A stretch of DNA of 36,588 nucleotides from the IMG/VR virus record IMGVR_UViG_3300042896_000649, positions 1 to 36,588 of that record; one strand, written 5' to 3'. Below the pieces are notes generated by a model. It was not told where the DNA came from. It saw nothing but the letters and a program-made list of their open reading frames with translations, and searched no databases. This DNA is from a virus. Below, piece by piece: positions 4,197-35,551 of the stretch; position 1 is the first letter of the stretch; every line of letters begins with the position of its first letter. The position numbers were made by a program, and so were the translations under genes.

Positions 4197-4218
4197 GTTT
4201 AATAATTGTTTAATAATT
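4197..4218 (-). repeat. Tandem 11-bp duplication of a gene end
   Basis: GTTTAATAATT occurs twice back to back (4197-4207, 4208-4218). On the coding strand the unit is AATTATTAAAC, which contains the last two codons and stop (N-Y-stop) of the fibre gene at 4210-5235. The second copy lies directly before ATG 4195. It could be simple replication slippage or a short version of the gene-end duplications seen at 5243 and 7906. Confidence 0.7.
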
Positions 4219-5235
4219 GTAAAATAAATATAGTGAATTTCCGGGAGATGGAGTAGATAAATAAGATGCTGTAGCAGAAAAAGAAGCACTTACTGCATTT
4301 AAAACATAAGAGGACGTTTGAGCATTTTGAACATAAGATGCAGTTTGAGCATTTTGAACGAATGATGCAGTTTGAGCATTTTGAACATAAGATGCAGTTT
4401 GTGCATATGAAGCACTTGTTGCATATGATGCACTTGCGGGGGTAGTAGTAGAAGATACATAATCCTGTGGAGAAAATTTCATAATCCAATCTCCTCCTGA
4501 TGTTGTATTTTTATAGTAGGTATATCCTAAAACTCTAACTATATTTGGTGGGACTGTTGGGGGAGTACAGTCCATTACACCTACTCCATCTGATTGTAAA
4601 TATATTGGGGCTCCTCCTATATGACCTGCTATATAAGGGCCAAAAGTTCCATAATCATCATGTACTACTAATTCTCCTTCTAATAATACAAGATTGCCTG
4701 GAAGCCAAATACCTAAAACATATGTAGCTTGGGTAGATTTTGTAGCTACTGGGTTCCAAGTAAATGTATCTTTATCATAGGCTACAACATTATATAAAGC
4801 TGCTGAAGATGAACCTTGAATTGTTTTTCCTGCATATGATGATGTTGCAGAAAAAATATTTTGAGTAATGTTTACAATTTCACTTGTATAGTATACTGGA
4901 GAAATAAGATTTAAATCATTTTGCCAATTTAATACTCTATTACCACCTGTAGATACTAAAACTCTTCCTCCCCAATCTACACTTCCAACACCATATTGAT
5001 CTGTTAAATTTAAACTTTCCCAAGATAATACAGCAGTTCCTGCAGAGTTATATAAAAATCTATTAGTAGTATCAATACCATCAATTACAGTACTTTGTAA
5101 ATCAATTTTATTTGTTGAAGGTACATTTTTTTGTGTAGAATATACGTTAGGATCAGGAGTAAATTCATAGGTTCCATCTTCCTTTATTGTTTGAACCCAT
5201 TGGATTGGGACTATTCTTGAAATTTGTTCAGCCAT
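4210..5235 (-). CDS. Tail fibre protein with VQNAQTASY repeats
   Basis: A 341-residue protein. The N-terminal part (MAEQISRIVPIQWVQTI and onward, about 1-255) is beta-rich with many Ser, Thr, Asn and Tyr. From about 265 to 330 it consists of alternating short repeats: SYAQTASYVQNAQTAS, then FVQNAQTASYVQNAQTSS, then YVLNAVSASFSATASY. These nine-residue repeats are typical of trimeric fibre shafts in marine and Bacteroidota phages. The same repeats occur in the fibre gene at 7954-9402. The region before its start codon carries a 47-bp copy of another gene's 3' end and an AT-rich late-promoter-like element (5241-5251). A short tandem repeat overlaps its stop codon. Confidence 0.8.
   Translation of the reverse strand: MAEQISRIVPIQWVQTIKEDGTYEFTPDPNVYSTQKNVPSTNKIDLQSTVIDGIDTTNRFLYNSAGTAVLSWESLNLTDQYGVGSVDWGGRVLVSTGGNRVLNWQNDLNLISPVYYTSEIVNITQNIFSATSSYAGKTIQGSSSAALYNVVAYDKDTFTWNPVATKSTQATYVLGIWLPGNLVLLEGELVVHDDYGTFGPYIAGHIGGAPIYLQSDGVGVMDCTPPTVPPNIVRVLGYTYYKNTTSGGDWIMKFSPQDYVSSTTTPASASYATSASYAQTASYVQNAQTASFVQNAQTASYVQNAQTSSYVLNAVSASFSATASYLSTPSPGNSLYLFYNY
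4316..4396 (-). repeat. Three 27-bp tandem repeats inside the fibre gene
   Basis: Units start at 4316, 4343 and 4370 with the core GTTTGAGCATTTTGAAC on the plus strand. Each encodes one VQNAQTAS(Y/F) repeat. Nearly the same unit occurs in the fibre gene at 8309-8437, so the two genes share direct-repeat homology that could recombine. Confidence 0.85.
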
Positions 5236-5242
5236 ATCACAT

Positions 5243-5289
5243 ATAAATATTAATATGTCTTTGTGTTATCATCGTTTAATGAAGATAAT
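5243..5289 (-). repeat. Copy of the 3' end of the membrane-protein gene, in an intergenic gap
   Basis: These 47 bases match 10307-10353 at 45 positions. Read on the minus strand they encode LSSLNDDNTKTY-stop, exactly the C-terminus of the gene at 10314-11327. Both mismatches are synonymous (Leu TTG/TTA, Asn AAT/AAC). A TAA stop lies one codon upstream in frame, so only the tail of the gene remains. The copy ends 8 nt before ATG 5235. The AATATTTAT element in the copy may serve as a promoter for the fibre gene. Confidence 0.85.
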
Positions 5290-5330
5290 TATAATAAATA
5301 TCCAAGTTTAAGTTAATTGAACATATGAAG

Positions 5331-5498
5331 TTAAAATATACTAATATTTTCTTTACCTAATAAAGTTTGTGGAAAATAAACTGTTGAAGCTTCAATAAAA
5401 ATAGGACTGCCTACTGATCCTGATGCAGGAAGAAAAATAGTAAAAGTATTACCAATTCCTGATCCAGTTACGGCGAATAGTATATCAGTTAGTGACAT
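5331..5498 (-). CDS. Small 55-residue protein after the large fibre gene
   Basis: ATG 5498 opens a complete 55-codon frame ending TAA at 5331. It begins MSLTDILFAVTGSGIGNTF and ends LLGKENISIF. The start is only 3 nt after the stop of the 801-residue fibre gene, which supports coupled expression. The composition (Gly/Ser/Thr/Phe, beta-prone, no charged cluster) matches the structural proteins around it. I recognise no family. It may be a fibre accessory protein or a separated C-terminal piece. The frame is easily missed because of its length. Confidence 0.6.
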   Translation of the reverse strand: MSLTDILFAVTGSGIGNTFTIFLPASGSVGSPIFIEASTVYFPQTLLGKENISIF

Positions 5499-5501
5499 TT
5501 T

Positions 5502-7907
5502 TTAAGCTTGAGTTAATAAGGCCCTTACAGTTATACCATTACCTAAAACACCATTATCAGCGGTATATCTAATATAATTCCCAATAGTATCTGCTGATGA
5601 AGACCATGCGAGCCATGTATTACCTCCATCTGTTGAATATTCCCAGGTCCCATAAGTGTTAGAAGTAACATTATCATCTAATACAGTAGCATTATTAGCT
5701 ATATTAAATAATCTAATTCTTAGATTAGGAATGGTTCCCCCCCATCCTACTATTTGTCTCCAAGCAAATTGTCTATTTTGAGCTGATGATTTTGTTAATG
5801 ATGGTTCATAATGTGAATCTTGTGATCCATCTTCATATACACAACAAATAGAATATATTCTTGTTGGCACACAAATCTCACCCATTATATCAAATGCTAT
5901 TTTAAATTGAATGTATTCTCCATAAGCAGCGGCAGTTAAATCTGCACCAATTGGAACTTCTGTCCAGGCACCACTATTATCATCTATACCAGAAGTTCTA
6001 TACCATATTTTGTAAGATTCAACAGGGAATCCTAAATTAGATGTTCCAGCGTATTCCATATGGTCGATGTAAACACTGTATAATTTAGTTACATTTGGAG
6101 TAGCTAATTTTGGTGTTATAATATATTGTTGTGAAATATCTATATAAGAACTATCAGCTGCAAAAGGAAAAATATATAACCAGTTACCCCCGGAGGTGGT
6201 TGAAGAAGGTATAACAAACATCCAACCATCTTCAGTCCATATAGTTGGGGTTCCTTGAGGAAATAATCCATCGCTAGCACCTGTTGGGGTTGTAGTTAGT
6301 TTTAAACGACTTAGGTTAGCTCCAATATATTTATCAAACTGATCTCCAGTTGTATTATATTGAGTTACATATGTCCCTAATCTACCGCCAGTGTTTGTAA
6401 TAAATAACTTATCAATAGTAGTTGAGTAGTCAACCTGACTCATTGTTGATAAAGCAGAATATGTTGTTGAACCTCCAGGAGGAACCTCAATCATAAAATC
6501 TCCTAACCAACTAGTACTCCCAGCTGTTATATTAGCTATAGGGCATCTAAAAATTCTTGTAGTAGTTGTAAACCATAAACTTGTTACACCAGAAGAAGCC
6601 CCATGTGATACAGAAAATATTCTACCAGAATTCACTTGAGATACTGTTCCTGTTATAGACATTGGGTTTGTTTTTAATATAAAAGCAGAAGGAGAAACAC
6701 CTGAAGAAGGACCTCCTGTTAAAGCTCCTACTGTTAAAGCCGCTCTTAAATTATATTTTGTTATAGTAGCAGCTAAAGTGTTAGAAGTAGCATTAACCAA
6801 ATAAACTGGGTGGTTTGTATTATCTATTTGATCATCAACAGCTAAAGTAGCTGCTATTACATTACTACCAGCATGAATTGTATGTGTACCAGAACCTGCT
6901 GCCGATATACTGGCTATTGCTCCTCCATATGCAGTAGAAATAGAAAATTGGTTTACTCCGTAGTTTGTAGCAATTACATAATAAGCAGTGTTAATAGTTA
7001 AACCTGTTGGTAATGTATTCGTGGTTGTAAAATATACAACATCCCCAACAACTAATCCATGTCCTGTACAGGATAATATATTTGTAGTACTATAGGTTAC
7101 TGTAGCTGTCTGACCACCTGCTACTGAAGCGTCTTTCAACAAATAGGATGCTCTAATATTATCTACTGTGGTTGCTTCTGGGATTGAAGTACCGCCGGGT
7201 GCAAATGTATCGTAATTTAGTCCTTTAATTAAATGGACACCACCATTAATAGAAGTAACATTTGTTACTGCTAAAGCTATTCTAACCTCTTCAATCACAT
7301 AAGGGGTGCTCGGTGATAAGGTTACTGGTGCATTTATGGTTAAAGTCGTATCATTAGTTATAGTAGTAATTTCATACCATGTTGTTACTTGAGTAGGGTT
7401 TGTAGTACCAAATCCTATACGAGCTCCAACAGCAATTCCTTCAGATGTGAATCCGGTACCGGAACCACCTATAGTTGCAGATGTTCCAGATGTTGATACG
7501 GTACCCGTTGTGTGTTTATACACAAACCCTCTCATTGATCTTATCGTTTTATTACCTAAAATGGTTGTACCAGATAAAGTTATATATCCTTTATATGTTA
7601 TTGTTTGTGAGGTTGAATTAAATTCAAATAAAGTAACAGTTCTGGTAACAGCTTGGGTAGCATTTGTACACGCAAATATCCAATAAATATTATCAGACCA
7701 TTTAATAACATGAGGCATAAACTGTGAACCTATTGCTACCTCAGGTATATTTACTATTTCTGAGGGTTGGGTTGTAATATAGTTATCTTCAGCATTAGAT
7801 CCAGTAGTTTGTTGTAGTAAACTAGCTATTAAAGTTTTTGTAGAATTATAAGAACCTGTTAAAGGTGCTGTAGGTCCATTAAAATGATGTTCAACTGCGG
7901 CTTTCAT
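5502..7907 (-). CDS. Large tail fibre / adhesin protein
   Basis: An 801-residue beta-rich protein, dominated by Thr, Ser, Gly, Ile and Asn, with few charged residues. Around residues 275-345 it has a phage-type beta domain: CTGHGLVVGDVVYFTT, TGLTINTAYYVIA, then GSGTHTIHAG. This pattern occurs in many phage tail proteins. A WYRTSG and WTEVPIGADL region at about 640-660 and a C-terminal WEYSTDGGNTWLAW module look like carbohydrate- or protein-binding beta sandwiches. No hydrolase motif is evident. It begins at ATG 7907, whose first bases overlap the TAATG of a duplicated gene end (7906-7944). It probably builds the long fibre together with the neighbouring repeat-bearing fibre genes. Confidence 0.75.
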   Translation of the reverse strand: MKAAVEHHFNGPTAPLTGSYNSTKTLIASLLQQTTGSNAEDNYITTQPSEIVNIPEVAIGSQFMPHVIKWSDNIYWIFACTNATQAVTRTVTLFEFNSTSQTITYKGYITLSGTTILGNKTIRSMRGFVYKHTTGTVSTSGTSATIGGSGTGFTSEGIAVGARIGFGTTNPTQVTTWYEITTITNDTTLTINAPVTLSPSTPYVIEEVRIALAVTNVTSINGGVHLIKGLNYDTFAPGGTSIPEATTVDNIRASYLLKDASVAGGQTATVTYSTTNILSCTGHGLVVGDVVYFTTTNTLPTGLTINTAYYVIATNYGVNQFSISTAYGGAIASISAAGSGTHTIHAGSNVIAATLAVDDQIDNTNHPVYLVNATSNTLAATITKYNLRAALTVGALTGGPSSGVSPSAFILKTNPMSITGTVSQVNSGRIFSVSHGASSGVTSLWFTTTTRIFRCPIANITAGSTSWLGDFMIEVPPGGSTTYSALSTMSQVDYSTTIDKLFITNTGGRLGTYVTQYNTTGDQFDKYIGANLSRLKLTTTPTGASDGLFPQGTPTIWTEDGWMFVIPSSTTSGGNWLYIFPFAADSSYIDISQQYIITPKLATPNVTKLYSVYIDHMEYAGTSNLGFPVESYKIWYRTSGIDDNSGAWTEVPIGADLTAAAYGEYIQFKIAFDIMGEICVPTRIYSICCVYEDGSQDSHYEPSLTKSSAQNRQFAWRQIVGWGGTIPNLRIRLFNIANNATVLDDNVTSNTYGTWEYSTDGGNTWLAWSSSADTIGNYIRYTADNGVLGNGITVRALLTQA

Positions 7908-7944
7908 TATTGTCTTGCTTGTATATTAATAAATATAGTTAAAT
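7906..7944 (-). repeat. Copy of the 3' end of the upstream fibre gene
   Basis: These 39 bases match 7953-7991 with one mismatch. On the minus strand they encode LTIFINIQARQ-stop, against LTIFIDIQARQ-stop in the intact gene. The stop overlaps the next start codon as TAATG (ATG 7907). The copy also carries TATATTTATTA, similar to the late-promoter element found before other structural genes. Confidence 0.85.
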
Positions 7945-7952
7945 TTGTTTTT

Positions 7953-7991
7953 ATTATTGTCTTGCTTGTATATCAATAAATATAGTTAAAT
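7953..7991 (-). repeat. Partner copy: 3' end of the fibre gene at 7954-9402
   Basis: Direct-repeat partner of 7906-7944, 47 bp away, with 38 of 39 bases identical. It forms the real C-terminus of the 482-residue fibre protein. The 8 bases between the two copies are AT-only apart from one base and encode nothing. Confidence 0.85.
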
Positions 7992-9402
7992 CTGTGATAT
8001 ATAGTGATGATTGGCTCACATAAAATTCTAGTAAATCATTTATGTTTAATTGAGTAGTCCAACCTGTTAAAATTGTATCTAAAGATGAAGATTGGTTTGT
8101 TAAAGAAATAGTACCTAAGGTTATTCCATTTCTTTTTATATTAACATCTATATTACCATTAGTATTAGCTATAGTTCTAGTTTTAACTATATTAGCATTA
8201 TAACCAATATGTTTATATCCTTTTGAACCTTCTATAATATAAATATTATCTGTTATTATTCTAGTACCAATAGTTGTTATATAGGGATTAAAAAGAGCAT
8301 AAGAAGCTGTTTGAGCATTTTGAACAAATGAAGAGGTTTGTGCATATGAAGCACTTACAACAGTTCCACTAAAAAATGAAGCCGTTTGAGCATTTTGGAC
8401 ATATGAGGCCGTTTGAGCATTTTGAACGTATGAAGAGGTTGAAGCAAAGCTTGAACTTATAGCATTTAAAACGTATGAAGCAGTTGTAGCGGTTCCAAGT
8501 AAAGATCCTGTAAATGAAGTAGCTGTTAGTGAACCTGTAAGGTTATAGCTACCTGTAAGTTGTTTTGTGTTTATCCAAATACTACTACTATATACTAATA
8601 AGTCGCCACTTGTTAAAGACCCAGTATTTATTCTAACATTATGTAATTCATCTATTTCATAACCATTATCTACTTTAACAAATATTGTACCGTTATTTTG
8701 ATGAGCATAAACAACATATCCTATAGTTATAGTATGTTGTGGTGCTTGAGGTTTAACTTTTGTTATAGATCCTGCTGTAGTTGGTGACAAATACAATGCA
8801 TCACCATCTAACCAAGTTTCGCCTTGAAGTGTTCCAGTAGTATCTATACCTCTAACTAATCCGCTATTAGTAATAAAACCCTCTTGGTTTACATTAATAT
8901 CTTCTGTTACTAATCCTAATGTGTCTACTGAGTTAGCATCGTTATTGGCTTGAGCTAGGACAATTGCTAGTCGCTGTCCTTGGGCTCCTCCTTCATCTAC
9001 TCTACGTATACGAATAGCTTTGTACTGTGACTCTAGTAAATTAGCTCCAGTTTTATTTACTACTCTAACAACTTGTTCTTGACCTAGTTGTAAAGTAACA
9101 TTTCCACCTTTTAATCCTAAATCTAAAGTACCATCAGTATTATTCCATACTAAGCGACTTGCGGCTCCTGATCCAGAAAAGTATATTGAATCTGTTATAT
9201 TTAATGAGCCTGTTACTATTTGGTTACCTATAAATCTATTTGAACCGGTGGTTGCAAATGATCCTGTATCAATAGTACCTCCAGATCCTGAAATTGTAAA
9301 CAATGATCCTGTTCCATCATATATAAGGGTTCCATCTGTTTGAAGAACACGTTGGTATGTGTTTTCAATATCTTGACCTGTTAAATCAAAAGGTCCTGCC
9401 AT
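7954..9402 (-). CDS. Tail fibre protein with conserved MAGPFDLTGQ start and VQNAQTASY repeats
   Basis: A 482-residue protein. It starts MAGPFDLTGQDIENTYQRVL, an N-terminus shared by tail fibres of marine T4-like phages and probably the attachment to the baseplate or tail. Residues about 108-265 form a conserved beta domain (QVVRVVNKTGANLLESQYKA, EGGAQGQRLAIVLAQ, TWLDGDALYLSP, VDNGYEIDELHNVRI). Residues about 285-370 are repetitive shaft sequence (SYVQNAQTASYVQNAQTAS). The final 110 residues are a small beta domain ending FIDIQARQ. It follows the conserved virion-type gene at 9412 after 9 nt. The 3' end has been copied in front of the next gene. Confidence 0.85.
   Translation of the reverse strand: MAGPFDLTGQDIENTYQRVLQTDGTLIYDGTGSLFTISGSGGTIDTGSFATTGSNRFIGNQIVTGSLNITDSIYFSGSGAASRLVWNNTDGTLDLGLKGGNVTLQLGQEQVVRVVNKTGANLLESQYKAIRIRRVDEGGAQGQRLAIVLAQANNDANSVDTLGLVTEDINVNQEGFITNSGLVRGIDTTGTLQGETWLDGDALYLSPTTAGSITKVKPQAPQHTITIGYVVYAHQNNGTIFVKVDNGYEIDELHNVRINTGSLTSGDLLVYSSSIWINTKQLTGSYNLTGSLTATSFTGSLLGTATTASYVLNAISSSFASTSSYVQNAQTASYVQNAQTASFFSGTVVSASYAQTSSFVQNAQTASYALFNPYITTIGTRIITDNIYIIEGSKGYKHIGYNANIVKTRTIANTNGNIDVNIKRNGITLGTISLTNQSSSLDTILTGWTTQLNINDLLEFYVSQSSLYITDLTIFIDIQARQ
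8309..8437 (-). repeat. 27-bp fibre repeats shared with the 4316-4396 repeats
   Basis: Units begin at 8309, 8384 and 8411, with the core GTTTGAGCATTTTG on the plus strand. A shorter relative, GTTTGTGCATATGAAGCAC, occurs at 8336 and again at 4397. Each codes for a VQNAQTAS(Y/F) or AYAQT-like unit of the fibre shaft. Confidence 0.8.
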
Positions 9403-9411
9403 AACTTATTT

Positions 9412-9957
9412 TTATATTAATGTTTGAATAATTCCTTCGATTATTCCGCTTTTTTCACCATTGCTGATTTTATTGATTTTTAAGTAAGAAGATATAATAT
9501 TATTTAATTTAACTTTATTTAAAGCCATATTAGTTAAGCCAATATTTTCTTTTACAAGTATTCGAGTTAAATTTTGAATGTGATCACCAGCTTTAATGTT
9601 TCTTACACTAATTGATGGTTTAGATTCAGATATAATATTTTGGTTTGATTGTGATTTCACTTCTACTGTTACCTTTCTTGCTGTTTCTACTTCAAAATTT
9701 GATTCCCATGGTGTAAAATACGTATCATCTGCTATAACTTCAAGCCTTATTTTGCCTTTTGTTGATTCTTCTAATAAGTTTTTTAATTTTTTAATAGGAA
9801 CGGTACATTTACCGTTAGAGTCAATAGTTCCTTTAAATAAAAGGTTTAAATTATCTGATTCTACTATTAAACGTGCTTGACTATTTTTAACAGAAGCACC
9901 CTCTAGTGAAATAGAACATTCAAATACTTCTTGTTTATCCGTGTATAATATATACAT
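9412..9957 (-). CDS. Conserved T4-superfamily virion-type protein
   Basis: A 181-residue protein. The N-terminal half is beta-rich (ARLIVESDNLNLLFKGTID, then KIRLEVIADDTYFTPWES at about 70-87) and resembles a protein family present in many marine T4-like phages next to fibre or neck genes. The C-terminal half (about 100-181) is helical and charged. I recall the family as structural but with no defined role. It starts at ATG 9957, overlapping the stop of the preceding gene by one base (TAATG), and is followed by the fibre gene after 9 nt. A role in holding the fibre or in virion assembly is inference from position. Confidence 0.7.
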   Translation of the reverse strand: MYILYTDKQEVFECSISLEGASVKNSQARLIVESDNLNLLFKGTIDSNGKCTVPIKKLKNLLEESTKGKIRLEVIADDTYFTPWESNFEVETARKVTVEVKSQSNQNIISESKPSISVRNIKAGDHIQNLTRILVKENIGLTNMALNKVKLNNIISSYLKINKISNGEKSGIIEGIIQTLI

Positions 9958-10301
9958 TACCTATTTATTTTAACATCAATTCCTAGTACTTCTTTAGCCA
10001 CTAGTGTTACATCGGTTATACGTATTTGACGATTTAGTACCTCTTTAGTTTCTTTGTATTCTATGCCCTCAACTTGACATAAAAGTTTAATAAATCGTTT
10101 TTTCTTTTCGGGATGTTTATTTAAATAACTGCCAAACCCTTTTCCTCCTACATTAATTAATTCAATAATTAAAGCGCAATCATCCCATCTATTTGTTCCT
10201 GTTACCGTTTCATTTGGTGGATATGTTTTTCCATCAGTTGGATTTATAGCATCCCATTTAAAATTAGCTGTGTTCCATTGAAATGGGATTCTTGTAGCCA
10301 T
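9957..10301 (-). CDS. Conserved small virion-type protein (FxWN start)
   Basis: A 114-residue protein beginning MATRIPFQWNTANFKWD. A central VGGKGFGSYL is followed by HPEKKKRFIKLLCQVEGIEY (64-83) and a basic end. The first half looks beta, the second helical. Similar short proteins appear beside the 9412-type gene in marine T4-like phages. Function is unknown. It shares the IP(F/I)QW N-terminal motif with the fibre at 4210-5235 (IVPIQW), and both genes are preceded by the same duplicated sequence, so the two starts may be related. Confidence 0.65.
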   Translation of the reverse strand: MATRIPFQWNTANFKWDAINPTDGKTYPPNETVTGTNRWDDCALIIELINVGGKGFGSYLNKHPEKKKRFIKLLCQVEGIEYKETKEVLNRQIRITDVTLVAKEVLGIDVKINR

Positions 10302-10306
10302 ATATA

Positions 10307-10353
10307 ATAAATATTAATATGTCTTTGTGTTATCATCATTTAATGAAGACAAT
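10307..10353 (-). repeat. Partner copy: 3' end of the membrane-protein gene
   Basis: 45 of 47 bases match 5243-5289. Here the sequence is the real C-terminus (LSSLNDDNTKTY-stop) of the 337-residue membrane protein, plus the first bases of the short gap before ATG 10301. It contains AATATTTATTATAT, a late-promoter-like element that ends directly at the start codon. Confidence 0.85.
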
Positions 10354-11327
10354 CTATTATTAAGAGTATTTAATGCTGAACTTCTAGAAAAACTAGATCC
10401 TTTACTACTATTTTGGATTTTTTCCATTTCCTCTATTATATTTTGTTTTTCTTGTTCAATAGCGGGATCTGGTTGATATTCTTGGGTTAGTAGAGTAGGT
10501 TTTGGTTCTCCATAAATGTTAAGTTTTGGTTTTAAATTATTAAATGATTGATTTGTAGCAATTACAAGTATAATAGCTAATGGATCAAATACAAAAATAA
10601 TAAGCAAAATAAATATATTTGCTGTTTTTTTAATAGGCATTCCCGTAAGCTCACTTACATATTTAATAGCACCTAGTTCGTTCCCTAATTGAGATTTAGA
10701 TTCCATATTTAACACCTGAATGTCTAGGTTGGTTAAACTGTCATTTAAAGCTTCTATTTTTGTAGATGTTTTGGTTTTATTTTCTAAAGCTAATGTTAAT
10801 TGTGATTCAAATGCTTTACGATTTCCTGTATTTGCTTTGCTTATAACTTGGCCTGTTTTTTTGTCTACAGTTTGGGTTGTAGTATTTATTGAAAGTGCAT
10901 TTCTAAGTTGTGAAATATCCTTATCTAATGTAGTTTTTTCTAAAGTATATTCTTTTTTAATTTCATTAAATCGATCTCTTTTTAATTGGACATTTGCAAC
11001 CTCTTTTCCACCAATTTCAAGTTTAGATATATTTTCTTGAAACCCAGTAGTTAATAGTCCATAAATTCCTAAAGAAGTAATAAATGACAGAATTACTAAA
11101 GCAGTAGTTAAATACACTTTTAACATAGTGTATGTTTTTTTCCACTGGTCGTGTAAATATGTTGTGATTGCTATTTTAGATAACTCTAAAAATGAACCCA
11201 TTATGATTACAGGAATAGCTACGCTTGCAAATAGGATTGATAATCCCATAACACTATAATAAGCGGCTGTTAAAGATAGTCCTACTGCACAAAACAGTAG
11301 GAACCAAGATAATAGTTTTTGTTTCAT
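10314..11327 (-). CDS. Multi-pass membrane protein with long coiled coil
   Basis: A 337-residue protein. Three hydrophobic helices lie in the first 92 residues (about 7-27, 30-50, 68-92). A long heptad-rich, charged coiled coil spans about 100-225. A fourth helix contains FDPLAIILVIATNQSFNN (about 250-268), and a polar tail ends NDDNTKTY. The FDPLA...IA segment recurs in membrane proteins of cyanophages and other marine T4-like phages, whose function is not known to me. Possible roles are lysis timing, superinfection control or membrane anchoring. Its ATG lies only 13 nt after a strong terminator hairpin, so its expression is probably lower than that of the gene before it. Confidence 0.75.
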   Translation of the reverse strand: MKQKLLSWFLLFCAVGLSLTAAYYSVMGLSILFASVAIPVIIMGSFLELSKIAITTYLHDQWKKTYTMLKVYLTTALVILSFITSLGIYGLLTTGFQENISKLEIGGKEVANVQLKRDRFNEIKKEYTLEKTTLDKDISQLRNALSINTTTQTVDKKTGQVISKANTGNRKAFESQLTLALENKTKTSTKIEALNDSLTNLDIQVLNMESKSQLGNELGAIKYVSELTGMPIKKTANIFILLIIFVFDPLAIILVIATNQSFNNLKPKLNIYGEPKPTLLTQEYQPDPAIEQEKQNIIEEMEKIQNSSKGSSFSRSSALNTLNNRLSSLNDDNTKTY

Positions 11328-11966: not shown

Positions 11967-12569
11967 TTATTTATTTAATATTTGTGCACTTGGTGCTGTT
12001 ACTGTTAAACATTTTCCTATTGCTGTATTTGTTATTGGTCCGTAATGTAAAAACCCAACTGGTAGTGATGTAGTTGAAGACGGTTTGTCAAAATTTACAT
12101 AACCAACTACTCCACCTGTTGTCATTTCCCATACAAAACCAAAATCGGTATTTGGGTTCCATGTTGTTGATGTTGAAACTCTAAATGTACCCATAACTGC
12201 CCCATCTCCAGTTGGTATAATAGGAGCTGTTTCATTGGTAAAGATGTTTGTTGCTGAAGAGAAGTTTAATTTTCTTGCACCTGAGATATATGGTAAATTA
12301 GTAGTTCCTTTATTAGGCCAGCCTAACAATAACGAATGCGCATTTTCATTTAATGCTTTCCAAGTTATTGTTCCTGTTGTTATCTTTGGAGAATGAACTC
12401 CACGAATAATCAATGCGTTGAATTTAACTGCTGTTGTACCCGTGCTTGTTAATCGGATTTGAAAATCTGCAGTGTTTGTTGTTGCACCTAACCACTCCAT
12501 ATCCATTTTGACTGATACTGTTGGAGCAATGTTAGTTAATTCTTGTAATCTTTGTTCTTTAAGGCTCAT
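11967..12569 (-). CDS. Virion-type protein of unknown function
   Basis: A 200-residue protein starting MSLKEQRLQELTNIAPTVSV. It is rich in Thr, Asn, Gly and aromatic residues and probably all-beta. Segments such as DFQIRLTSTGTTAVKFNAL (35-53) and FGFVWEMTTGG (about 143-153) resemble Ig-like or jelly-roll structural domains, not an enzyme. An ATATTTATAA element 34 nt upstream suggests late expression, and it precedes the lysin candidate after 6 nt. It may be a decoration or fibre-associated protein. I do not recognise a family. Confidence 0.65.
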   Translation of the reverse strand: MSLKEQRLQELTNIAPTVSVKMDMEWLGATTNTADFQIRLTSTGTTAVKFNALIIRGVHSPKITTGTITWKALNENAHSLLLGWPNKGTTNLPYISGARKLNFSSATNIFTNETAPIIPTGDGAVMGTFRVSTSTTWNPNTDFGFVWEMTTGGVVGYVNFDKPSSTTSLPVGFLHYGPITNTAIGKCLTVTAPSAQILNK

Positions 12570-14632: not shown

Positions 14633-16360
14633 TTAACCTTCACAACTAACGCAAGAATCATTTCTTGAGATATTGTCTCCTCTTAAAATGCTTTCACTTC
14701 TGCAATAATATAATGTTTTAATACCTTCTCTCCATGCTAATTTATGCACCTCACTAATGTATTTTGGTGAATCAGATGGATCAAATGTTAAATTTAAGGA
14801 AATTGCTTGGTCAACATATTTTTGTCTAATTCCATTTTGACGAACAATTTCGTAAGGGTTAATTTCTTTAAATGTTAAAAATACTTCTTTTTCCTCAGCA
14901 GATAAAATATGATCAGGTAAACCTATTACAGATCCTTTGTCTTTAGCTATTTGTTCCCAAATGCTATTAATGTTATATCCTTTTTTTTCAAGTAAACGCT
15001 CCAATGTTGGATTACGTTTAATAAATGTACCTTTAGCTGTTTTTAAATTAAATACATTTGCGGGGATTGGTTCAATTGAAGGAGAAACTCCACCTGAAAT
15101 GTTTGCATTTGATACTGTTGGAGCAATTGCTTGGTGATGTGTATGTCTTAAACCTGTTCCTTTACACCATTCTGGTTCCCCATATTCTTTTGCTTGGTCT
15201 CGGGATGCTTTTAATGTCTCTTCTTCAATAAATTGAGACATTATTCGAGTGTATGAATTTGCTTGTAAACCTGCAAAAGGAATTCCTTTTTCTTGTAAAA
15301 ATGTATGCCATCCAAGTACTCCAATACCAATTGCTCTACCTTTAACAGCAGAACGGTGAGTATTTTCCATAAATTTAAGACTTTTAGAACGATCTATAAA
15401 TTCTTGCAATACACCTTCCAAAAACCAACAAGTTAATTCAGGTAAAGTCATTCCATTTTCAAATTTATAGTCTTTCCATTCATCCCATCTTGCTAAATTC
15501 AATGAAGATAAACAACAAATAAATGAATGTAATGGATCTGTGTATAGTGCAATTTCAGAACAAATATTTGTCATTGAAACATTCAAGTTAAAGTTTTTAT
15601 ATGCTTGAGGGTTTGCATTGTTTATATTATCTTCAAACATCAAATAAGGTTCACCTGTTTCTAAACGAGTTTTTAAAATTTCACCCCATAATCTTAAAGC
15701 ACGTGGTTCTTTTTCTTCTAACTTGTTCATAAAATCATCATCTATAACAACGCATTGATGCATGTTTAGGCATTGTCTGTTGACATCTCCTTTAGGGCGG
15801 CGAACCATTAAAAATTCCTCTATATCGGGATGATTCACGTGTAAATTAACTGATGCTGCACCACGTCTAACGGATCCTTGATTGGTAGCTAGGATTGTTG
15901 AATCATATATTTTAATCCAAGGAACTACACCCTCAGATACACCATTTCCAGAAATTTCTTTACCTCTACCTCTAATTCTAGACACACCAATTCCAACTCC
16001 ACCACCTTGGGATGACAAACGCATTAATTCAGAATTTGCTAATGCAATTCCCTCAATTGAATCGTCTGTATCTATTCCAAAGCAGGAAATTGGCATACCA
16101 CGTTCTGTACCTAAATTAGATAAAACAGGGGATGCTAAACACAACCAATTTTTTTCCATTGCTTCAGCAAAAAATGGTTGAAGATCTTTACGTTTTAGTC
16201 TACGAGAGGCTGCTTTTGATACTCGATTAAATGCTTTAAATACATTTTCCTCCGGTAGTAAATATCCTTGTGAAACTATGGATTTGCCAATTTCATCTAA
16301 CCATTCAGGGTAATCTTTACCCTTCACCCATTTACTGGTGTCTATGTTTAATTTGCTCAT
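14633..16360 (-). CDS. nrdA: Class I ribonucleoside-diphosphate reductase, alpha subunit
   Basis: A 575-residue catalytic subunit that reduces ribonucleotides to deoxyribonucleotides for phage DNA synthesis. Visible active-site features are the redox Cys93 (PISCFG), the N-x-C-x-E motif N265-C267-E269, the partner Cys near 282-283, the radical-transfer pair Tyr551-Tyr552 (TLYYC) and the C-terminal CVSC tail (Cys570, Cys573) that takes electrons from thioredoxin or glutaredoxin. It is much shorter than the roughly 750 residues usual for the family. No ATP-cone precedes the catalytic barrel, so dATP feedback at that site should be absent. It lies 9 nt after nrdB. A bulk dNTP supply for an AT-rich, fast-replicating genome is the expected role. 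Confidence 0.95.
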   Translation of the reverse strand: MSKLNIDTSKWVKGKDYPEWLDEIGKSIVSQGYLLPEENVFKAFNRVSKAASRRLKRKDLQPFFAEAMEKNWLCLASPVLSNLGTERGMPISCFGIDTDDSIEGIALANSELMRLSSQGGGVGIGVSRIRGRGKEISGNGVSEGVVPWIKIYDSTILATNQGSVRRGAASVNLHVNHPDIEEFLMVRRPKGDVNRQCLNMHQCVVIDDDFMNKLEEKEPRALRLWGEILKTRLETGEPYLMFEDNINNANPQAYKNFNLNVSMTNICSEIALYTDPLHSFICCLSSLNLARWDEWKDYKFENGMTLPELTCWFLEGVLQEFIDRSKSLKFMENTHRSAVKGRAIGIGVLGWHTFLQEKGIPFAGLQANSYTRIMSQFIEEETLKASRDQAKEYGEPEWCKGTGLRHTHHQAIAPTVSNANISGGVSPSIEPIPANVFNLKTAKGTFIKRNPTLERLLEKKGYNINSIWEQIAKDKGSVIGLPDHILSAEEKEVFLTFKEINPYEIVRQNGIRQKYVDQAISLNLTFDPSDSPKYISEVHKLAWREGIKTLYYCRSESILRGDNISRNDSCVSCEG

Positions 16361-28328: not shown

Positions 28329-28380
28329 TTATATAAGTGTTAAGTTAAGTTAGTGTTTCTTTATTTTGATTTTGAATTCT

Positions 28381-30913: not shown

Positions 30914-30927
30914 AATTATTGTTTTTA

Positions 30928-30937
30928 TTATAAATAT
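30928..30937 (-). promoter_or_regulatory. Putative late-promoter element ATATTTATAA
   Basis: The minus strand reads TATAATATTTATAATAAAAA, 14 nt before ATG 30913 and just after the tape-measure gene. No TTG-type -33 box is present. Same decamer as at 33423, 34896, 35526 and 12604. Confidence 0.55.
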
Positions 30938-30958
30938 TATATCTTTATTTCTATTTTA

Positions 30959-33409: not shown

Positions 33410-33422
33410 TTAAAATATTTTG

Positions 33423-33432
33423 TTATAAATAT
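33423..33432 (-). promoter_or_regulatory. Putative late-promoter element ATATTTATAA
   Basis: The minus strand reads TTTAATATTTATAACAAAAT, 13 nt before the tape-measure ATG 33409. The same decamer lies at nearly the same distance (13-14 nt) before the starts at 34882 and 30913. Confidence 0.55.
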
Positions 33433-33447
33433 TAAATATTAACATTT

Positions 33448-35010: not shown

Positions 35011-35499
35011 TTAGTAGTTTAAGATACAATAATCTGGCTGTACTTCTAAAGCAATATTTACTATTGTTCCGTCATCATCATAGTTATAATCTCCAAAGTT
35101 AGCACTTGTTACTACTGCTCCTTTGATTATCCATTCTGAAACGATATCTCCAACAGGGCCAACTACATTAAATGTTAAATCTTTTTTATAGAAATCAGAA
35201 TAACCATCTCTACCCGTTACAGATTCGTGACCTAAACGTATCCATTCCATTACGGCTTGTGCTCCCGATGGTGTGATAGATTCAAATAAAGTCATTGAAA
35301 TTGTACCCCAAATAGTTTTTCCTTTTACATAACGTTGAACGTTAATGTGGTTAAGGGCAACTGCTGTTTGAGCTACATTTATTCCTCCCACTCCTTTTAC
35401 TAAAAATGATGGAATACCATCCATATAAAGGATAAAGCGATTAGATTGTTTTGGTTCAAACGCGGTAAAAAATATTTCGTTCGGATTTAAAATTGCCAT
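35011..35499 (-). CDS. Tail tube protein, T4 gp19-like
   Basis: A 162-residue protein: MAILNPNEIFFTAFEPKQSN, RFILYMDGIPSFLVKGVGG, SMTLFESITPSGAQAVMEW, VGPVGDIVSEWIIKGAVV and a beta-rich end. Length, fold pattern and position right after the sheath are those of gp19-type tubes, which stack as hexameric rings around the tape measure and DNA. It has its own late element 26 nt upstream, an A-rich leader with no Shine-Dalgarno, and its own terminator, so it is a monocistronic, highly expressed unit. Confidence 0.93.
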   Translation of the reverse strand: MAILNPNEIFFTAFEPKQSNRFILYMDGIPSFLVKGVGGINVAQTAVALNHINVQRYVKGKTIWGTISMTLFESITPSGAQAVMEWIRLGHESVTGRDGYSDFYKKDLTFNVVGPVGDIVSEWIIKGAVVTSANFGDYNYDDDGTIVNIALEVQPDYCILNY

Positions 35500-35525
35500 T
35501 TTGTTTTTATTTTAATTTTGTTTTA

Positions 35526-35535
35526 TTATAAATAT
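35526..35535 (-). promoter_or_regulatory. Putative late-promoter element ATATTTATAA
   Basis: The minus strand reads TAAATATTTATAATAAAAC, in the 52-nt gap between sheath and tube, 26 nt before ATG 35499. With the terminator at 34949 it frames the tube gene. Confidence 0.55.
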
Positions 35536-35551
35536 TTAATAATTTAATTTT

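Follow-up and report, generated by a model that had tools for sequence, protein, structure and literature searches.

Gene order in the fibre region and the repeated end of gene M

The window analysed here is the whole of IMGVR_UViG_3300042896_000649, a 36.6-kb IMG/VR virus record that represents a metagenome contig, and all of its plausible genes are carried by the minus strand (Table 1). The region from the membrane-protein gene M to the gene at 2033-2533 forms a variable fibre island, and several distant relatives have a homologue of 2033-2533 directly after M. In the window, M and the fibre gene A are kept apart by genes B, C, D and E and a 55-aa ORF (5331-10301). No Pfam or PHROG family matched any protein of this block, and hence no recombinase could be recognised among them. 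Among characterised phages A has no relatives, and M and C have distant ones only. Otherwise different phages have proteins to which gene E is, for the most part, 57-73% identical, and in these phages it is preceded by a gene with a D-like C-terminus and followed on the 3′ side by a small ORF.

Table 1. Genes, repeat copies and motifs of the fibre region, with positions in the window
Feature	Coordinates	Strand	Basis or remark
Membrane-protein gene M, intact	10314..11327	-	
Fibre gene A, 341 aa, TASYVQNAQ repeats	4210..5235	-	Homologue directly after M in relatives
Gene B, first of the block between M and A	9957..10301	-	
Gene C, block member	9412..9957	-	
Gene D, fibre with TASYVQNAQ repeats	7954..9402	-	
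Gene E, 801 aa, common to otherwise different phages	5502..7907	-	
55-aa ORF behind E, closing the block	5331..5498	-	Weak resemblance to the small ORF behind E elsewhere
Putative displaced M 3′ end (LSSLNDDNTKTY-stop) and leader	5243..5289	-	Repeat match; same as the L002 and L003 M-A junction
M-end 47-mer, genic copy, and leader now serving gene B	10307..10353	-	Repeat match; gene order of relatives
ATATTTAT, promoter-like, 15 nt from the ATG of fibre A	5243..5250	-	Motif enrichment; first base is the last of the displaced TAA
Second ATATTTAT, directly upstream of the breakpoint at about 5289/5290	5294..5301	-	Read from the sequence
Second candidate scar, D end in tandem before the ATG of E, 47-bp repeat	7902..7995	-	Genic copy 7949-7995, spacer copy 7902-7948, each with ATATTTATT

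The spacer upstream of A holds a 47-base copy of the end of M, that is, its last 12 codons, the stop codon and the leader, which agrees with the genic copy at 45 of the 47 bases; a gapped alignment of the repeat reaches 57 bp at 91% (E 8e-18). When the window was shuffled three times, the best 47-base self-match was 33-34 of 47, and the repeat is therefore not due to chance. As the initial annotation had described, both copies encode the same end of M and differ at just two positions of the minus strand, both synonymous (TTA/TTG for Leu and AAC/AAT for Asn). Since an in-frame TAA abuts the copied Leu codon on its 5′ side and the copy has no start codon, the copy in the spacer is not a gene and is not translated. 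The same annotation had argued that a copy decaying as non-coding spacer would not be expected to change at third positions only; the two differences would both fall at third positions by chance with a p of about 0.11, and taken alone the argument is weak. Its further suggestion that the genes following the two copies share a related start, IP(F/I)QW, was dropped, as the N-termini of A and B, compared as profiles with hhalign, gave a probability of homology of 0.4%.

At the RNA level, the fold of 5230-5300 was no better than that of shuffled sequences (z -0.74), with no significant stem-loop, and the 47-mer had no match in Rfam. Extra nucleotide constraint on the last seven codons of M was not significant (six of seven codons identical, against a fraction of 0.60 elsewhere in M).

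The M-A junction in related viral contigs

Searches of viral contigs retrieved 19 loci for M and 56 for A. In two of these contigs, 3300011335_000900 (L003/L024) and 3300020044_011308 (L002/L025), M is directly followed by A. This is the order that the initial annotation had predicted for a relative as source of the copy, next to its other suggestion of a fibre cassette inserted together with its upstream flank. The M protein is 96% identical in both, and the A homologue, which begins 17 nt past the stop codon, is 85% and 78% identical, respectively. When the junctions were aligned, the window spacer equalled the M-A junction of L002 and L003 at all 54-55 bases, a stretch that takes in the leader ATGTGAT and runs up to the start codon of A. 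Moreover, the copy in the spacer carries the M allele of L002 and L003, and the window's own M end carries that of L001, in which B comes after M, just as it does in the window. That the spacer copy has the other M allele means that the differences are exclusively synonymous because they separate two coding alleles, which are older than the spacer state; the earlier observation is thus retained, with allelic differences as its explanation. Together, the M-A order of the relatives and the identity of their junctions to the spacer argue that 5243-5289 is a displaced M-A junction severed inside M.

A degenerate search of viral contigs found nine stretches with the M end, and all nine close an M reading frame, some of these frames being cut by the stored stretch (L023 and L164). 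The next gene, 15-18 nt on, belongs to the A family in eight of the nine and is B in the other (L001). At the ends of remoter M genes that have no fibre gene behind them the motif is missing, and a search of cellular genomes with the motif gave no match. These data bear on the alternative, already considered in the initial annotation, that the 47-mer is a conserved regulatory repeat (a promoter or leader) lying at gene ends by chance, its likeness to coding sequence being incidental. The last bases of the 47-mer do hold a promoter-like motif found genome-wide, and in L028 a sheath-like gene is preceded by AGACATATTAATATTTATAA without M. However, the remaining ~35 bases are peculiar to M: wherever the longer motif was matched in viral contigs, the match was the end of an M reading frame, and other genes have just the short motif in common. 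Before unrelated genes, moreover, the only exception to the lack of full-length copies is a decayed M end in L002 (see below). A regulatory repeat is thus largely refuted and very improbable.

The surroundings of A and B differ between contigs. The order is M-A-B-C in L086, L087 and L089, and M-A-small ORF-B-C-D in L003. The upstream neighbour of B may be an A-type fibre, a lysin gene, phoH or M, depending on the contig.

An assembly chimera of co-occurring strains, joined at 5289/5290, was considered as well, as the window is a metagenome contig whose own breakpoint was found in no second contig, and the near relatives L004, L005 and L007 end within the last third of M, as would be expected if the strains of the sample differed from that point on, which hints at strain mixture. 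Such a mis-assembly is nevertheless unlikely, with only a small chance left to it: no long word is common to both sides of 5289/5290, and a like junction, formed with phoH, is present in two different metagenomes (L156 and L159).

A promoter-like motif at gene ends and other stranded gene ends

The 47-mer terminates in TAATATTTAT, the TAA of which is the stop codon of M. Of the 8-mers enriched upstream of genes, ATATTTAT ranks first in a 129-kb relative, where it stands before 19 of 151 genes; coding regions would predict 0.7, and the other strand has two. The same enrichment is seen in a second relative and in the window. In nearly all listed cases the motif lies 13-37 nt before the ATG, twice right behind a terminator-like hairpin. 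The genes that follow it include two tail sheaths, a tail tube and phoH, and it also stands before sheath genes in many other contigs. Since ATATTTAT is enriched upstream of genes, tail-sheath and tail-tube genes included, the copy at the end of the 47-mer is probably the late promoter of A, its activity being predicted from this enrichment.

Further promoter-like motifs were seen in the window. Within the last codons of fibre A, ATATTTAT at 4224-4231 lies 36 nt ahead of the gene that follows; here, too, a promoter-like element is embedded in a gene end. The promoter-like motif AATATTTATAA is found before several genes (35500-35551, 30914-30958 and 33410-33447), including the tail-tube homologue at 35011-35499.

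Stranded gene ends were also found elsewhere. In the window, E is preceded by a tandem repeat of the end of D (Table 1), with two coding differences that are both non-synonymous (Asp/Asn twice); no relatives of the D C-terminus were found, and this repeat could be a plain local tandem duplication. In L002, positions 15547-15593 hold a decayed M end (64 nt, 83%; LFLLNNNNTKIY-stop) before a gene beginning MEELNTQDPQ. Its changes are mostly from G/C to A/T, several of them non-synonymous, and its motif half is conserved, a pattern that is confounded by the absence of G and C from that half. In L003, the spacer before B (12101-12214) contains the end of a gene X, which matches L104 at 92.6% over 54 nt, as well as a scrap of X's upstream neighbour in L104; that is, this spacer is a relic of deleted genes. 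In L091, an intact phoH (the name being taken from the homologue of the 129-kb relative) stands ahead of B-C-D and a small ORF, after which come a displaced phoH end with ATATTTAT (10657-10772; 88% over 84 nt) and the next gene; the same scar occurs in L156, from another metagenome. Gene E and its neighbours are a module that crosses phage groups, and in L125, from the other phage group carrying E, a displaced gene end lies behind the small ORF after E. Given the scars in the window (D/E), L002, L003, L091/L156 and L125, stranded gene ends before fibre or structural genes are recurrent.

Other matches from the spacer scan, e.g. L069/L083 and window 28329-28380, look like differences in gene calling and were not counted. 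Beside the D/E module of the other phage group, reciprocal gene-end and pseudogene relics were observed at L125:1909-2132 and L126:6688-6960.

ATATTTAT is present at the M-A, M-B, X-B and displaced phoH junctions alike. Furthermore, TAATATTTATTATATATG occurs both where M meets B in the window and where X meets B in L003, consistent with an earlier exchange at this element.

The 47-bp direct repeats could also be working recombination sites, in which case the B-E block would loop out and restore M-A, giving switchable fibre sets. The repeats border exactly the block, both arrangements occur in nature, and in L091 a repeated gene end borders B-C-D too. On the other hand, the block encodes no recognisable recombinase, the repeats of the window and of L091 are unlike in both sequence and length, and no sample was seen with both states, so that a dedicated switch has very little probability.

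Proposed history and comparison with known systems

We consider it likely that what survives in the 47-mer is the front edge of a former M-A junction, displaced by ectopic recombination and kept for its promoter. The older state would be M-A, with an A-family fibre gene 15-18 nt past the M stop codon, as still seen in relatives, and with the probable late promoter of A (TAATATTTAT) and the leader on and just after that codon. Ectopic recombination, most simply a single crossover between co-infecting relatives, would then have joined the far end of an M-B-C-D-E-ORF genome, just after the ORF, to a point within the last codons of the M gene of an M-A genome, and the product would be M-B-C-D-E-ORF-[end of M]-A. 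Such a displacement could equally be described as insertion of the block or as a move of A. Because the probable promoter and the leader of A sit at and after the M stop codon, the untranslated gene end was probably retained for bringing A its promoter and start region, a role that we infer for the copied end from the position of the motif.

Taken by itself, 5243-5289 is a recombination scar of an ordinary sort whose pattern is of general use, and what had been a puzzling repeat now has an identified source arrangement. It suggests a rule for the movement of fibre modules in uncultured tailed phages, namely that a promoter located at the end of the neighbouring gene travels along. More tentatively, fibre modules of these phages might shuffle by breaks that spare the late promoter in the upstream gene end, with scars recording the order of the swaps and with direct repeats that may let a block be lost again; this broader scheme is possible, though we would put it at somewhat below even. 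Gene-end scars could serve to trace the history of fibre genes from single genomes.

In the tail-fibre locus of T-even phages, hypervariable fibre genes are swapped between relatives by recombination at short shared sequences. The exchange there takes place mainly within adhesin genes, whereas in the window whole genes are reordered and the end of a neighbouring gene is stranded. In integrating elements that duplicate a gene-end att site, the insert is bordered by copies of the 3′ end of the target gene, as are the inserts in the window and in L091; unlike such elements, the block encodes no integrase or recombinase that could be recognised by Pfam or PHROG matches.

The T4 late promoter, TATAAATA, is short and AT-rich and lies just ahead of late structural genes (PMC1524935, PMC2988020). 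ATATTTAT is similarly a short AT-rich element before late structural genes (two tail sheaths and the tail tube), but it differs from T4 in that ATATTTAT and not TATAAATA is the element enriched on the coding strand, TATAAATA being present in five coding-strand upstream regions and 14 on the other strand. T4-type late promoters are, moreover, bound by a gp55-like factor and are sites of RNA start.

The closest parallel comes from the PeSLs, mobile promoter/stem-loop cassettes associated with modular shuffling in T4-type phages (Arbiol 2010; Comeau 2014; PMC4503421). As far as the cited account describes them, PeSLs combine an early promoter with a stem-loop, whereas the window has a late-type motif at the 3′ end of the upstream gene, with a scrap of that gene carried along, and the stem-loop terminator of the PeSLs is absent (5230-5300, fold z -0.74). 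The element in the window is thus not a PeSL, as the stem-loop is absent and the promoter class differs. It would nevertheless work like PeSL shuffling in that, within the scope of that account, an intergenic stretch bearing a promoter (a predicted one in the window) travels with or borders exchanged gene modules.
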